Part shown: piece by piece, positions 4,135 through 12,943 of the stretch
Position numbering within the stretch: the first letter of the stretch is position 1
Layout of the letters: the number at the start of each line of letters is the position of its first letter
IMG/VR virus record: IMGVR_UViG_3300042465_002939
Coordinates: 1 to 35,484 of that record
From: a virus
Length of the DNA stretch: 35,484 bases
Direction: 5' to 3' (one strand)
The notes under the pieces: model-generated
Databases searched by the model: none
Seen by the model: only the letters and a program-made list of their open reading frames with translations
What the model was told of the DNA's origin: nothing
Made by a program: the position numbers and the translations under genes

Positions 4135-4307
4135 GCGTCTGGCGCAGACCTGGCTTTTCCGCCTGCGGTTTTGGTGGCAAGGGCCGTTTTGATTTCATCG
4201 ACGCTCACGCCGTAAAACGTTGCAGCACCCTCGATGCCATATCGATTAACGATGTTTTTCAGGCGCCGAAAGCGAGGCTCGCTGTCCAGTATCTGCTGCA
4301 CTGTCAT
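4131..4307 (-). CDS. Small unknown protein between TerS and TerL
   Basis: 58 residues starting MTVQQILDSE. ATG 4307 is chosen because GGAGAA lies about eight bases upstream; the same frame stays open to 4550 only as a shadow of TerS. The stop overlaps the TerL start by ATGA, so the two are probably coupled. The middle (RYGIEGAATFYGVSVDEIKTA) looks like a short helix-turn-helix fold, so it could bind DNA near the packaging site or help the terminase. I know no named family for it. Confidence 0.7.
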   Translation of the reverse strand: MTVQQILDSEPRFRRLKNIVNRYGIEGAATFYGVSVDEIKTALATKTAGGKARSAPDA

Positions 4308-4320
4308 GCTAGGTTCTCCA

Positions 4321-4737
4321 TCACGCTGACTTCGGATCGACGATGGTGCGTTTGATCTCGATCGGGATCGCTCCGCCGTCTGGCCCTGAGAGTTCCTGCT
4401 TGTCCTTCTGGCCAAGCATCTGCTTACCAAGCCAAACGAGCATTGTCGGGTTGCCATCCTGGGCAGCTTTCCACTGTGCGCGGCGCAGAGAAGCCTTCCC
4501 TTCGCCCTGGTGCTTTTTATAGAGGGCTTCAAAATTATCCACACCATCAATGCCTTGCTCTTTGATGCGGCGGTTTAGGGTCGTTTCGCTCATGTTCAGG
4601 ATGTCGCAGATTTCGTCGCGCGTGCACTGGATGCGGATCATATTGACGAGTTGCTCGAACTCCTTGTCGGTCATTGGCTTGGTCGGACCTTTTGGCCCTG
4701 TTTTTTTTCGCTCGGCGGCTGGCTTACGGGCGGCCAT
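4321..4737 (-). CDS. Terminase small subunit
   Basis: 138 residues from ATG 4737. GGGAGG lies seven bases upstream, and the start overlaps the methyltransferase stop as TGATG (an in-frame GTG at 4740 is less well placed). TerS recognises the packaging site and controls TerL. The N-terminus is basic (KPAAERKKTGPKGPTK). It is followed by a helix-turn-helix (TRDEICDILNMSETTLNRRI) and then the C-terminal pattern common in small terminases, LRRAQWKAAQDGNPTMLVWL followed by GKQMLGQKD. A run of eight T on the plus strand sits in the Lys-rich start. Confidence 0.9.
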   Translation of the reverse strand: MAARKPAAERKKTGPKGPTKPMTDKEFEQLVNMIRIQCTRDEICDILNMSETTLNRRIKEQGIDGVDNFEALYKKHQGEGKASLRRAQWKAAQDGNPTMLVWLGKQMLGQKDKQELSGPDGGAIPIEIKRTIVDPKSA

Positions 4738-9335: not shown

Positions 9336-10436
9336 TTAAATCCTCATCGGCATCAGGATTTGCAGCAGCGCCGGGTCGTCGGTTAGGACGCGGGCCGGAT
9401 CGCCAGCGCTTGCCGTCTCCAGCCGGATCGTTCCTGCCCGATCGACGAAGGACTTCAGGTATCCGAGGTTGAAGCCGACCGGCTTCTCGCCCTTGGCCTG
9501 GACGGGCATCGAAACCTCGGTGCCGTCGTAGTTCCGATAGGTCATCTTGCCGGTGGTCGGGTCGATCTGGATCGCGCGCGAGCGCTCGGTCGTCGGGGGG
9601 AACCGGCGCAGCGCGGCGGCGCTGATCACGGCGGTGATGTTCTGCGACGGATGCGGGATCACGCGGGTGTAGTCCGGGAACGTGCCGTTGATCGTCTTGC
9701 TGGTGATCGTCCAGCCGTCGCCAGAGAACTCGACCCGGTTGGCCGGGTGCTTCGGTGCGAGGGTGGCATCGCTGTTCTTCGGGTCGGGCGAGGACTTCAC
9801 CGCGATCGTGCCGTTGCTGCCAGGCTTCATCGCGCGCTGGAGAATGGCGACCGTCTTGCGGGGAACGATCATCCCGTCGAACGGCCACGGCTCGCCCGCG
9901 TCGTAGATCGCCATGCGGTGCCCGTCGGTCGAGACCGCGCGCAGGCCGTCCTTGTCGTGCAGGAACACGCCATTGAGGTAGTAGCGGGTTTCCTCGGTCG
10001 AGATGCAGGCGATCGTCGAGGTCAGCGCCTTGTGGAGCCGCGCCTCGCTGATCGTCGCGCTGTGATCCTGCTGCGGGATCATCACCGGGAAGTCGTCAGC
10101 CGGGCAGAGTTCGCGCACCACCGCGACGACATCATCGACCTTGATCGTGATCAGGTCCTTCTTGCGCGAAATCGTCACTTCTCCCTCGGCCCAGCGCAGC
10201 AGGCCGTTTAGGAACTTTGGCTCGATGGTGGTGTCGATCTTGCCGGTCGCCTCGATCACGTCGGCGGTGGCGCGGCATTCGATGTCGAGGTCGGTGCCGC
10301 GCACCTCGATCCCGCTGGCAGAGGCGGTGATCCGCACCATGCCAAGGACCGGGATCGTGTTCCGGCGCTCGACTGGCTGGGCAGCGAAGGCCAGCGCGCG
10401 CCGCAGCGCCGTCGCGTGACATGTGAAGCTTTTCAT
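9336..10436 (-). CDS. dnaN: DNA polymerase III beta subunit (sliding clamp)
   Basis: 366 residues from ATG 10436, the same length as E. coli DnaN. The clamp encircles DNA and tethers polymerases and other partners. Family features include IPVLGMVRI, GTDLDIECRA, the STDGHRMAIYD motif in the central domain, TFPDYTRVIP, and the C-terminal MPMRI that lines the partner-binding groove. Three clamp domains of about 120 residues fit the length. No phage polymerase was found, so it probably recruits or competes for host polymerase III. It shares ATGA with the small gene upstream and is followed by a zinc-ribbon gene. Confidence 0.92.
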   Translation of the reverse strand: MKSFTCHATALRRALAFAAQPVERRNTIPVLGMVRITASASGIEVRGTDLDIECRATADVIEATGKIDTTIEPKFLNGLLRWAEGEVTISRKKDLITIKVDDVVAVVRELCPADDFPVMIPQQDHSATISEARLHKALTSTIACISTEETRYYLNGVFLHDKDGLRAVSTDGHRMAIYDAGEPWPFDGMIVPRKTVAILQRAMKPGSNGTIAVKSSPDPKNSDATLAPKHPANRVEFSGDGWTITSKTINGTFPDYTRVIPHPSQNITAVISAAALRRFPPTTERSRAIQIDPTTGKMTYRNYDGTEVSMPVQAKGEKPVGFNLGYLKSFVDRAGTIRLETASAGDPARVLTDDPALLQILMPMRI

Positions 10437-10669
10437 TGTTTTCTCTCCCAGAGTTCTTTGATCCGATCCTTCAGCGCTTCGCGCGCGTCGAGCGGATAGC
10501 TGTCGATGAAATTCCGGCGCCGGTGAAGCGTCGGAAGGCTGATTGCATGCTTGGCCGCGCTGTCGATCACCGCAGCCCTGCACGCCTTGCCATAGGCAGC
10601 GCGGGTTTTCTTGTCGGGCAGGTAGACCTCACCCATCCCGACCTGATCGCCTGGCTGCCAAGGCTTCAT
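10433..10669 (-). CDS. Hypothetical basic protein upstream of the clamp
   Basis: 78 residues from ATG 10669 (ATGA overlap with the gene before). Lys- and Arg-rich with helices; the middle, SLPTLHRRRNFIDSYPLDAR, and the end, KDRIKELWERKQ, could contact DNA or a replication partner. Translationally coupled to dnaN by ATGA. No family recognised. Confidence 0.7.
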   Translation of the reverse strand: MKPWQPGDQVGMGEVYLPDKKTRAAYGKACRAAVIDSAAKHAISLPTLHRRRNFIDSYPLDAREALKDRIKELWERKQ

Positions 10670-10890
10670 TTCTTCCCCCTTGGCTTGCGGGCGATGTAGG
10701 CGAAGAGCGGGCCGACACGGCGCTGGTAGAGCAAGCAGGCTCCACCTTGCGCCGCCTCGAAAGCATCCCGCCTGTGCGGGCCCCCTGCGTGCTCACCGAC
10801 GTGATAGACAACCTCGTCGCCGGGTTCGGCGCCAGCAAGGGCATGGCCAAACATGCCAGCGCGCTCCTTGGTGATGTCGATCTGCGCCAT
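10666..10890 (-). CDS. Hypothetical protein downstream of SSB
   Basis: 74 residues from ATG 10890, sharing one base with the SSB stop (TGATG). The sequence has a small beta pattern around AEPGDEVVYHVGEHAGGPHR, then a region with one Cys and a basic tail (RKPRGKK). It sits between SSB and the pre-clamp gene, so a replication role is possible. No family recognised. Confidence 0.68.
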   Translation of the reverse strand: MAQIDITKERAGMFGHALAGAEPGDEVVYHVGEHAGGPHRRDAFEAAQGGACLLYQRRVGPLFAYIARKPRGKK

Positions 10891-11336
10891 CAGAACGGTA
10901 TCTCGTCATCCATGTCGTTGCGCGGGCCCGGCTTCGGCAGATCGCCGTAGGCATCCTCCTGCCCCTTCGCAGCACCGCCACCGCCACCAGATGCGCCGTC
11001 AAGCATGATCATCTTGGCGTCGAAGCCGCTGAGGACGATCTCGGTCGACCAGCGGTCGTTGCCATCCTTGTCCTGCCACTTTCGGGTTCGGATCGCGCCT
11101 TCGATGAACACGCGATTTCCCTTCTCAAGGAATTGCTCGATCACGCGGACCAGCGGGCCGAACACCACGACCTGGTGCCACTCGGTGCGCTCCTTTTCCT
11201 CGCCGGATGCTTTGTCCTTCCATTTCTCGCCGGTGGCGAGCGGAAACGAGGCGACTTTGTCCCCGTTCTGCATGCTCCGAATTTCCGGGTCTCTGCCCAG
11301 GCGCCCGATGAGCGAGGCGCGGTTCAAATCAGCCAT
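10890..11336 (-). CDS. ssb: Single-stranded DNA-binding protein
   Basis: 148 residues from ATG 11336, with GGAG upstream; an in-frame GTG at 11363 is rejected. It binds single-stranded DNA during replication and recombination. The OB-fold pattern is complete: LNRASLIGRLGRDPEIR (residues 4-20), FPLATGEKW, TEWHQVVVFG, YxRxW-like IRTRKWQDKDG. It is followed by a short Gly-rich linker and the acidic tip DDEIPF that recruits partners. The linker is much shorter than in E. coli SSB (178 residues). The rightward ERF gene ends in a similar tip, DDEIPY. Confidence 0.95.
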   Translation of the reverse strand: MADLNRASLIGRLGRDPEIRSMQNGDKVASFPLATGEKWKDKASGEEKERTEWHQVVVFGPLVRVIEQFLEKGNRVFIEGAIRTRKWQDKDGNDRWSTEIVLSGFDAKMIMLDGASGGGGGAAKGQEDAYGDLPKPGPRNDMDDEIPF

Positions 11337-11359
11337 TGCTTTCTCCGTTGATTGCCATC

Positions 11360-11388
11360 GCACAGTTACACATTTTTGCGAACAGTGC
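11360..11388. repeat. Inverted repeat upstream of ssb
   Basis: GCACaGTT (11360-11367) and AACaGTGC (11381-11388) face each other across 13 AT-rich bases, with one symmetric mismatch. It lies between the end of the 11415-12002 gene and the ssb start and could be an operator or a small RNA hairpin. Confidence 0.45.
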
Positions 11389-11414: not shown

Positions 11415-12002
11415 TTATTCTGTCGGCATCTGGCGCGGCGCAAAGCCAGCTTCGCGCAGCAGTTCAGCAGCCCTTTCCGGTGAAATGCGCTCGCGCGGCT
11501 CTTCCTTCTTCGTGAAGTCGCGGCCGTTGCGGCGCAGTTCGAGCATCTGGACCGCAGAAGGCGCCCCGTTCATCTCGACCCTGCACCTGGCAGCGATGTC
11601 GCCTTCGAGCGGACGCTTCCGACGATCGGGATTGTCTGCGCTTTTCCACCAGCGCACCGCGCGCTCGATCGCCCAGCGCGGAAACTCGGCCAGTGCTTCG
11701 CGCCAGTCCTCGGCCTCCATCTCTCGCACACCCTGTGGCGTGTCCTTCTCGTAGTAAGGGCTGAGAAGCGCAGCGATGCGGGCGAGGCACCAGACAGGCT
11801 CCACCGGCACCATCAGCTTGCCAGAGACGCGCTCGACGTCAGCCTTGGCGGGGAGTTGATCTTGCGGCAACCGCGGCAAACGCCGCAGCCATTCCAGACC
11901 CTTGTCGATTTGCTCCTCGGTCAGCGCGCTGCTTGTCGTTGAAATACCATTCCGGCTTGACGGACTGCCATCCGCGTTCCTCTGCGAGACCGAGTGCGTC
12001 AT
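11415..12002 (-). CDS. Replication-associated hypothetical protein (possible helicase-loader position)
   Basis: 195 residues from ATG 12002, with GGGGAGA five bases upstream, so the gene overlaps the initiator gene by 164 bases. The core, EDWREALAEFPRWAIERAVR, followed by WWKSADNPDRRKRPLEGDIAARC, resembles a conserved phage protein usually found just after the O-like initiator. The position matches lambda P or another helicase loader, but no AAA+ motif is present, so the role is open. The tail (RISPERAAELLREAGF) is helical. Confidence 0.72.
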   Translation of the reverse strand: MTHSVSQRNADGSPSSRNGISTTSSALTEEQIDKGLEWLRRLPRLPQDQLPAKADVERVSGKLMVPVEPVWCLARIAALLSPYYEKDTPQGVREMEAEDWREALAEFPRWAIERAVRWWKSADNPDRRKRPLEGDIAARCRVEMNGAPSAVQMLELRRNGRDFTKKEEPRERISPERAAELLREAGFAPRQMPTE

Positions 12003-12582
12003 CGGTGTCTCCCCCTGCGTTAAAGATTTCCTGAAGGTTGCTGGCGAGCCGCTTGGCCGCCGTGAGCGTCAGCGCTTTGCCCTTCGTCCGCTTCCGATAG
12101 GCGATGAAGCTGGCGACGGCATCTGGCGAAGCCCAGGCGCAGAGCGTTTCGGATATTTCGTTTGCCTCGGCGCGTCCCCCCTTGGGGGGCAGGGGGGTAT
12201 CTTGTTCACTTCCAGGGTTATCTCTTCCAAGGTTATTGGCTGGCAAATTTTGCCACCCCACCCGTGCAGATTTTGCCACCCCGGATGGCAAATTTTGCCA
12301 CCCCTCATCGGCTTGCAAATGGAAGGCAAAGCTGTTCGCAGTCTGCTGCCCGTCCTCTCGAAAAGCGTTCTCGATCGAGATCAAACCGGCCTCCTGCAGC
12401 GCCGCGATCTGGTCTTGGACCGATCGCTTCGACATCTCGCAGACCTCGGCAAGGCGCGCGAGGCTTGGGAAGCACCTTCCGGTCTCTCCGTTGTGGTGAT
12501 CCGCCAGCCAATAAAGCACGATCTTGGCGGCCGGTTTCAGCCCCCTCTGCTTCATCGCCAGCGCCGTCATGTAGTGGCTCAT
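11839..12582 (-). CDS. Replication initiator, lambda O-like winged-helix protein
   Basis: 247 residues from ATG 12582, with AGGAG upstream. Residues 15-75 form a helix_turn_helix_36-type winged helix (KIVLYWLADHHNGETGRCFP ... LARLAEVCEMSKRSVQDQIA), as in phage and plasmid initiators. The middle (about residues 90-115) is repetitive (GWQNLPS, GWQNLPA) because the DNA there carries iteron-like repeats. The C-terminal part ends with LAEERGWQSVKPEWYFN, similar to DnaT/O-like C-termini that contact helicase or loader. Like lambda O, it probably binds repeats within its own gene and recruits host DnaB. Confidence 0.8.
   Translation of the reverse strand: MSHYMTALAMKQRGLKPAAKIVLYWLADHHNGETGRCFPSLARLAEVCEMSKRSVQDQIAALQEAGLISIENAFREDGQQTANSFAFHLQADEGWQNLPSGVAKSARVGWQNLPANNLGRDNPGSEQDTPLPPKGGRAEANEISETLCAWASPDAVASFIAYRKRTKGKALTLTAAKRLASNLQEIFNAGGDTDDALGLAEERGWQSVKPEWYFNDKQRADRGANRQGSGMAAAFAAVAARSTPRQG
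12180..12235. other. AT-richer stretch with a tandem imperfect repeat next to the iterons
   Basis: Next to the iterons, on the downstream side in coding direction, two near-identical units TTCCAGGGTTAT and TTCCAAGGTTAT lie in tandem, in a stretch of lower GC than its surroundings. In lambda ori the iterons are likewise followed by an AT-rich unwinding region. A C6-TT-G6 palindrome lies just beyond. Confidence 0.4.
12243..12304. repeat. Three iteron-like repeats inside the initiator gene (candidate origin)
   Basis: Three 17-base copies of GCAAATTTTGCCACCCC are found at 12243-12259, 12266-12282 (one change, GCAGATTTT) and 12288-12304. Starts are 23 and 22 bases apart, about two helix turns. 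Each core, GGCAAATTTTGCC, is itself nearly palindromic. Such in-gene iterons are the hallmark of lambda-type origins. Confidence 0.7.
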
Positions 12583-12736
12583 GGCTTCTCCTTTCGTGTT
12601 GTGGAGACGCCGCCCGCAATGCTATCTTGCGGTCAGCGCATCCGCCTATGCGCTCTGCCGATGCCAGCGGTGTGCAGACCGCTGCGGCTATCTTGGGGCG
12701 GGTCGAGCGCCTGCCAGCACTCCCCGCCCCGACACT
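12583..12736. other. Structured non-coding gap upstream of the initiator
   Basis: No credible gene is seen on either strand. The 154 bases hold several inverted repeats: CAGCGGT ... ACCGCTG around 12668, GCGCAT ... ATGCGC around 12645, and GGGGCGGG ... CCCGCCCC around 12695-12730. There are also two direct copies of AAGATAGC. It could carry a small RNA, an attenuator or part of the origin. The initiator's ribosome site (AGGAG) is at its left edge. Confidence 0.4.
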
Positions 12737-12943
12737 TTACTCAGCCTTCCCCTTCCGTCCAAGCCCCATCTTCGCCGCTTCGCTGATCCGATACCATCCA
12801 AGGCGAAGGATCACGTCGCCGTCATCGTCCATTCGGTGCAGCGTCTGCTGAACCTCGCGCGGGTTCAGCCCCATCTCCTGCGCCATCATCTCGGCGCTGG
12901 CTGCGGGGATCATCCGCAGATACGCCAGAAGCTGTTCCCTCAC
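12737..12943 (-). CDS. Winged-helix DNA-binding protein
   Basis: 68 residues from GTG 12943, overlapping the membrane-peptide stop as GTGA. The pattern LLAYLRMIPAASAEMMAQEM followed by GLNPREVQQTLHRMDDDGDV is a compact winged helix, with DVILRLGWYRI as the wing. It is probably a transcription or replication regulator. It stands just before the structured gap and the initiator gene. Confidence 0.75.
   Translation of the reverse strand: MREQLLAYLRMIPAASAEMMAQEMGLNPREVQQTLHRMDDDGDVILRLGWYRISEAAKMGLGRKGKAE

Follow-up and report, generated by a model that had tools for sequence, protein, structure and literature searches.

A candidate lambda-like replication origin within its own initiator gene in an uncultured phage group, with iterons that covary with the recognition helix of the initiator

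The window, which is the whole stretch of 35,484 nucleotides analysed here and makes up an entire virus record, possesses on its minus strand a gene for an O-like replication initiator with three near-identical repeats inside its coding sequence. This locus raises the question of whether the repeats serve the encoded protein or act as DNA and, in the latter case, whether they belong to a replication origin of the lambda type, as an earlier note had proposed. The relevant features of the gene are these:

11839..12582, minus strand: O-like replication initiator of 247 aa, with a winged-helix domain, an unstructured and putatively origin-bearing linker and a C-terminal domain (HTH_36, phrog_678, AF2 model)
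12406..12432, minus strand: predicted recognition helix, codons 51-59 (model helix 52-64; best iteron-predicting columns)
12286..12300, unstranded: iteron 1, nearest the start of the gene, TGGCAAATTTTGCCA on the plus strand
12264..12278, unstranded: iteron 2, GTGCAGATTTTGCCA on the plus strand, in a reading frame unlike that of iterons 1 and 3
12241..12255, unstranded: iteron 3, TGGCAAATTTTGCCA on the plus strand
12210..12235, unstranded: second element, two 11-bp repeats (12225-12235 and 12210-12220) of period 15, under DNA-level constraint in relatives
12197..12241, unstranded: least stable 45 bp of the O-like gene, the presumed unwinding element

We examined the geometry of the iterons and compared it with chance. 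Copies of the 18-mer GGCAAATTTTGCCACCCC start at 12242, 12265 and 12287 with 0, 2 and 0 mismatches, respectively. The start-to-start distances are thus 23 and 22 bp, and three near-identical 17-base repeats at a spacing of 22-23 had been described correctly. A palindromic core had also been ascribed to each repeat; it is complete in the outer two (7/7 pairs) but reaches only 4/7 pairs in the middle one, which is degenerate on one arm. When the pattern was searched at up to 3 mismatches, 5 matches were found against 0.03 expected per window, all of them at the iteron sites and none elsewhere in the record, a number reached in 0/100 shuffles; two of the sites are matched on both strands owing to their near-palindromic form. 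Read along the gene strand, the iterons are TGGCAAAATTTGCCA, TGGCAAAATCTGCAC and TGGCAAAATTTGCCA, and the peptide across them is GWQNLP-SGVAKSARV-GWQNLP. Owing to the 22 plus 23 bp spacing, copies 1 and 3 share one frame and copy 2 (GVAKSA) lies in another, so that protein repetition is unable to explain the DNA repeats. Moreover, the repeat score of 43/45 compares with 30.7 +/- 2.5 (maximum 39) among 300 synonymous-codon shuffles of the gene, none of which reached 43. These results bear directly on the idea that the linker needs its GWQNLP and NNLG peptides and that DNA repetition is a by-product. Two of the three iterons and both boxes of the second element do encode repeated peptides in the same frame, as that idea would have it, yet a middle iteron out of frame and shuffles that never attain the window score are not what it leads one to expect, and we regard it as barely credible.

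The O-like protein matches HTH_36 (PF13730) at 2.5e-16 (59.6 bits, cut-off 25) and phrog_678, 'replication initiation O-like', at 5.5e-26. Neither PF04492, the lambda O family (5.7e-36 for lambda O itself), nor the RepA_N domain was among its Pfam matches at E <= 1, and a match to PF21984, a DnaD N-domain-like winged helix, fell below the cut-off at 0.0014. An AF2 model (mean pLDDT 65.6, pTM 0.41) is confident over approximately residues 1-90. These residues form a winged helix with many structural neighbours, the DnaD N-domain (2v79) being one. Others are 4pt7, 4pql and 5kbj, which we take to be RepA_N proteins, with Z scores of 8.1, 8.0 and 7.3 that are common among winged helices. A sequence search of the PDB found a relative neither for the O-like protein nor for lambda O. 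The earlier description of an O-like winged-helix initiator therefore stands as to the winged helix and the O-like phrog_678 match, but the family is HTH_36 and not that of lambda O. The linker at about residues 101-134, between the winged helix and the C-terminal domain, has pLDDT values under 50, as expected of a disordered stretch, and the repeats do fall within it as had been claimed. Such a very low-confidence, disordered-like prediction further disfavors a linker that depends on repeated peptides.

Relatives were collected by two routes. A protein search of viral contigs supplied 80 loci (the best 80 of 105), and a DNA-only search with the second element supplied at least 120 viral stretches and 7 genome stretches. 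The loci listed contain 168 matches to the second-element pattern, with some contigs counted twice. Among these matches listed, 100/168 are in open reading frames with the motif LADHHN. The other 68 were checked by translation: 63 represent the same protein in variant or fragmentary form, and 5, in genome loci L201, L204, L205 and L206, are unrelated. O-like genome loci number three, from Donghicola, Thalassobacter and an uncultured Rhodobacterales bacterium. With 6 truncated sequences set aside, 176 sequences with a recognisable start, window included, were clustered at 90% into 57 representatives that also include the window; they were drawn from the matches listed, 33 by protein and 24 by DNA pattern.

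Iteron spacing is 22/23 in 46 of the representatives, 23/23 in 6 and different in 5. Codon shuffles reached the observed repeat score in 0/300 cases for 50/57 representatives, and in 1, 4, 1, 2, 6, 1 and 1 of 300 for the remaining seven; two of the 57 (L032 and L064) fit the triple finder poorly. Iteron identity was 0.79 within a phage versus 0.44 between phages, a difference inflated by a finder that picks similar triples, for which codon shuffles are the proper null. Had relatives kept the peptide and lost the DNA repeats, the origin reading was to fall; the opposite was found, with the DNA repeat kept across two frames. The repeats are also conserved despite protein drift, as anticipated, in the sense that iterons match within a phage while their sequence changes between phages. 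Scans for exact pairs of the iteron as it reads in the window gave no match in viral contigs or genome contigs because this pattern is too narrow for iterons that vary from phage to phage. In one relative, L107, about 45 bp of linker are missing and a single iteron is present versus three in L140, either through genuine deletion or through collapse in the assembly.

Next to the iterons lies a second repeat. In the window, TTCCAAGGTTA at 12225-12235 and TTCCAGGGTTA at 12210-12220 form a tandem repeat of the TAACCTTGGAA type with a period of 15. The surrounding 12198-12241 is 41% GC inside a gene of 60% GC, and the least stable 45-mer of the gene (12197-12241) spans the boxes; of the 35,440 such 45-mers in the record as a whole, only 74 have lower stability. 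An AT-richer stretch beside the iterons with its own tandem repeat, as first described, is thus borne out, and since the gene is on the minus strand, iterons come first along it and the AT-rich stretch follows, again in agreement. The arrangement recurs among the representatives: the distance from the centre of iteron 3 to the boxes is 14 bp in 45/57, and the least stable 45-mer is centred between -10 and +50 nt from the box start in 48/57. As 24 of the 57 had been recruited by DNA pattern, we repeated the conservation analysis of the boxes with only the 33 that came from the protein search. In these, codon positions 1, 2 and 3 are conserved at 0.98, 0.79 and 0.87 in the boxes and at 0.74, 0.84 and 0.51 in the N-domain. 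Codon choice within the boxes is similarly narrow, with CTT for 55/59 leucines, GGA for 51/51 glycines and GTA for 14/14 valines. Codon-position conservation and codon choice together indicate that the second element is held as DNA, and third positions more conserved than second ones count once more against a purely peptide-level requirement.

Elements of related form occur beside other initiators. Relatives of Labrenzia phage LagS-V1 possess a AACCCTGTAAGGGAACC...GAACCAGTAAG-like sequence in the corresponding part of the gene, matched by an expression in 38 of 53 distinct genes (15 gave no match). Within this element in the 38 genes, valine is GTA in 40/40 cases, versus 56/663 elsewhere, and arginine is AGA or AGG in 44/44, versus 62/1175 elsewhere. 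AACC-type boxes accordingly take the form TAACCTTGGAA in the window, AACCCTGTAAG and GAACCAGTAAG in LagS-V1 relatives, and GAACCAGTCA in enterobacterial genes; in genes of the enterobacterial type one exact GAACCAGTCA copy is out of frame with the others in 20/29 distinct segments, mostly from close relatives. We infer from these sequences that the three kinds of box may represent one element. Frame agreement of the TAACCTTG pattern was left unused as evidence because the pattern contains TAA, which forbids one frame. The gamma-type box pattern was rejected as a specific marker: it gave 129 matches in 120 loci, 38 of them antisense to other open reading frames and several sense ones unrelated, and it was relied on only alongside reading-frame evidence. 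A blastn search of the 33-nt box pair against phage records gave no match, and the single Rfam match, far below the cut-off, was discarded. A text search of the literature with the box sequences returned, among the matches listed, terms on unrelated subjects only. In the literature searched, which mostly excludes subscription papers, we found a published account neither of the conserved boxes nor of the helix-iteron covariation described below.

Could the protein instead bind inside its own gene as an operator, for transcription or copy-number control, with replication starting elsewhere? An HTH_36/MarR-like winged helix and palindromic sites that suit a dimeric repressor are both compatible with this. 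However, the sites lie roughly 280-345 nt inside the gene at fixed spacing and adjoin its weakest duplex, homologues are labelled O-like initiators, and the phasing of three sites, together with a second repeat that is conserved, suits an origin better, so an operator appears unlikely. We conclude that 12197-12300 is very probably an origin of replication of the lambda-like kind, lying inside the gene for its own initiator. The original lambda-type reading is supported by the DNA repeat kept across two frames and by a positive lambda control (below), and found no echo in cumulative GC skew, which has no turning point at 12.2 kb and is confounded by gene orientation.

If the iterons are read by the winged helix, their sequence should follow it. 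Iteron arms vary between phages (TGGCA, TGCGCA, GTCGCA/GTTGCA, GGAAA and others). The best single-column predictors of iteron sequence are residues 56, 51, 53, 54 and 57, and the best nine-residue segments start at 50 and 51. Across 55 representatives (L032 and L064 were left out because the finder did not fit them), a Mantel test of iteron distance against residues 51-59 gave r 0.67, and a partial r of 0.635 after removing residues 1-49 and 60-84, each with 0/2000 permutations reaching the value. Neither flank, 1-49 or 60-84, contributed significantly once the helix was accounted for (477 and 201 of 2000, respectively). With all 57 and another centring rule, which mis-centres some SKRAVQ-type iterons, r was 0.61 and partial r 0.55; residual flank correlations of 0.15 for 1-49 and 0.19 for 60-84 (3 and 1 of 2000) indicate that relatedness is incompletely removed there. 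By helix class, and only descriptively since the patterns used for the motifs are permissive and shared in part by several classes, the TGCGCA type and no other tested motif occurs in 38/39 iterons of SRR..E helices (13 representatives), TGGCA/TAGCA in 24/30 of S[KR]R..Q helices (10), the GTYGCA type in 54/66 of the D/N/E class (22) and GGAAA in 10/18 of [ST]DR..R helices (6). The helices and iterons of L098 and L128 are unlike, although divergence between the two over residues 1-49 is 6%. Covariation thus supports the proposal that iteron specificity is set by the recognition helix.

Comparison of several relatives with the window and L003/L004 points to exchange of this region as a unit. In L005, L006 and L008-L010 the leader and C-domain are kept, while the N-domain and linker are replaced and this iteron type is absent; in L005, sequence common with the window resumes near 12199, just outside the weak stretch. 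Helix, iterons and boxes thus travel as a single specificity module. A swap junction just past the second element, and the ability of each iteron to form a short hairpin, might suggest that the repeats are mRNA hairpins or recombination hot spots driving module exchange and not an origin. Neither idea predicts that iteron sequence follows a DNA-recognition helix, and both together strike us as very improbable. Other observations were made around these exchanges. A perfect 14-bp palindrome, CCCCCCTTGGGGGG, lies at 12176-12189, just past the candidate origin and near the swap junction, and is common to L005. In L008 and L009 (about 4250-4330), the swapped-in N-domain type has CCAGATATTAAA-like linker repeats with a 12-bp period, perhaps the unwinding element of that type. 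L300-L335, which are LagS-V1 relatives, encode PCPEIGHG or PCPDFGHG peptides, which point to a further class of palindromic iterons with wider spacing.

The leader at 12583-12740 (minus strand), which separates the O-like gene from its upstream neighbour, was also found to contain five consecutive hairpins (-78.3 kcal/mol, z -3.9, 0/200 shuffles). They persist through the module swap, although compensatory changes are few and the covariation term is only -0.63. The last one, at 12583-12612, pairs TCTCC with GGAGA of the ribosome-binding site. At this hairpin L048 and L052, with which L028 was also compared, have TTTCC and GGAAA, a possible compensatory change that hints at translational control; the CTCC..GGAG form is present in only 3/56 leaders.

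The initiator gene belongs to a cluster of replication genes:

11415..12002, minus strand: gene in the lambda-P position, 195 aa, overlapping the 3' end of the O-like gene, a presumed helicase-loading partner
10890..11363, minus strand: single-strand binding protein of the same cluster (PF00436, 6.3e-33)
9336..10583, minus strand: sliding-clamp-like protein (DNA polymerase processivity factor) of the same cluster (phrog_947, 4.1e-54)

The sliding-clamp-like gene adjoins that of the single-strand binding protein, while a match to polymerase A is absent from the record. The same holds for DnaB, lambda P and DnaC-like proteins in this record, which may be a fragment. The P-position gene is conserved together with the same C-terminal domain of the O-like protein while the N-terminal type varies, several of these types being additional to those above. 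Its product gave no match to PF06992 (lambda P) and no usable match in family and fold searches (best fold Z 4.7). By its position it is presumed to be the helicase-loading partner, and with no lambda P, DnaC-like or DnaB match and no clear fold match the helicase-loading step is guesswork.

These features resemble those of lambda in several respects: palindromic iterons midway through the initiator gene and in mixed frames, an easily opened stretch downstream in the gene, and a partner gene overlapping the initiator 3' end. Lambda iterons are placed in the middle of the O gene, adjoining an AT-rich region, in the available text of one report (PMC7466680), and we found that the annotated ones fall in mixed frames of O. 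As a control, the best triple in lambda scored 35/45, with 0/300 codon shuffles reaching it. When six further O-like genes were put through the same test, D_HF5_3, LagS-V1, Vibrio 236O40-1 and ST64B each gave 0/300, ZF40 1/300 and RcMeacham 12/300. The systems differ in that lambda has four iterons of another sequence versus three here, an O of PF04492 versus PF13730, an AT-rich stretch lacking the AACC-type boxes present here, and a P of which no counterpart was recognised in the window. A second precedent is the staphylococcal plasmid pPR9, in which an HTH_36 N-domain and an in-gene origin, about 500 bp, are described as exchanged as one module, with a mini-replicon that replicates and is compatible with its parent (available text of PMC5703833). 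It shares with the window the PF13730 N-domain, the in-gene origin and the exchange of both while upstream region and C-domain are kept; it differs in being a plasmid with a pSK41-type C-domain, and the likeness is to its published description. In pSK41, a RepA_N system, boxes in the central part of the initiator gene are bound by the winged helix which that gene encodes, and the linker can be dispensed with (same source); the RepA_N Pfam domain, by contrast, is the one lacking here. B. subtilis DnaD offers an analogy only: it has an N-domain of similar winged-helix type, and an element within the unwinding region (DRE) is read by the loader protein, as described in the available text of PMC10201434, but DRE consists of TnnT pairs and not of the repeat found here. 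Stx-phage replication regions with HTH_36 proteins have also been reported, in a paper whose available text does not use the word 'iteron' (PMC8951638). Given the lambda and pPR9 precedents, this kind of system is already known. What the sequences present is a lambda-like arrangement, but one built on another protein family and legible in dozens of related phages.

A possible course of initiation follows from this arrangement. Dimers of the O-like protein would read the three palindromic iterons through the N-terminal recognition helix, with specificity as suggested by covariation, and the 22-23 bp phasing would, by analogy with lambda, build a single nucleoprotein complex. The complex would then strain the adjacent weak duplex at 12197-12241, computed to be the weakest of the gene, which may open; the repeated TAACCTTGGAA-type boxes are apparently needed there as DNA sequence, as their constraint indicates. 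The C-terminal domain and the 11415-12002 product would, judging from position, recruit the host helicase, no phage DnaB-type helicase having been detected in the record. Tentatively, and with confidence a little short of even, we propose that these phages carry their own readable helix-site code and that the AACC-type boxes are one sequence-specific unwinding or loading element common to initiators of different specificity, probably read by a shared factor such as a host replication protein.

Cumulatively, these results narrow the probable origin in this group of uncultured phages down to about 100 bp and indicate that origin specificity is exchanged within the group in the form of a small cassette. 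As the recognition helix and its cognate site are no more than a few hundred bases apart, specificity may be readable from sequence alone for dozens of pairs, and the 57 clustered genes constitute a natural data set in which half-site bases can be related to residues of the recognition helix. A further question arises from the conserved boxes: what reads the same DNA element beside initiators that would bind different iterons?
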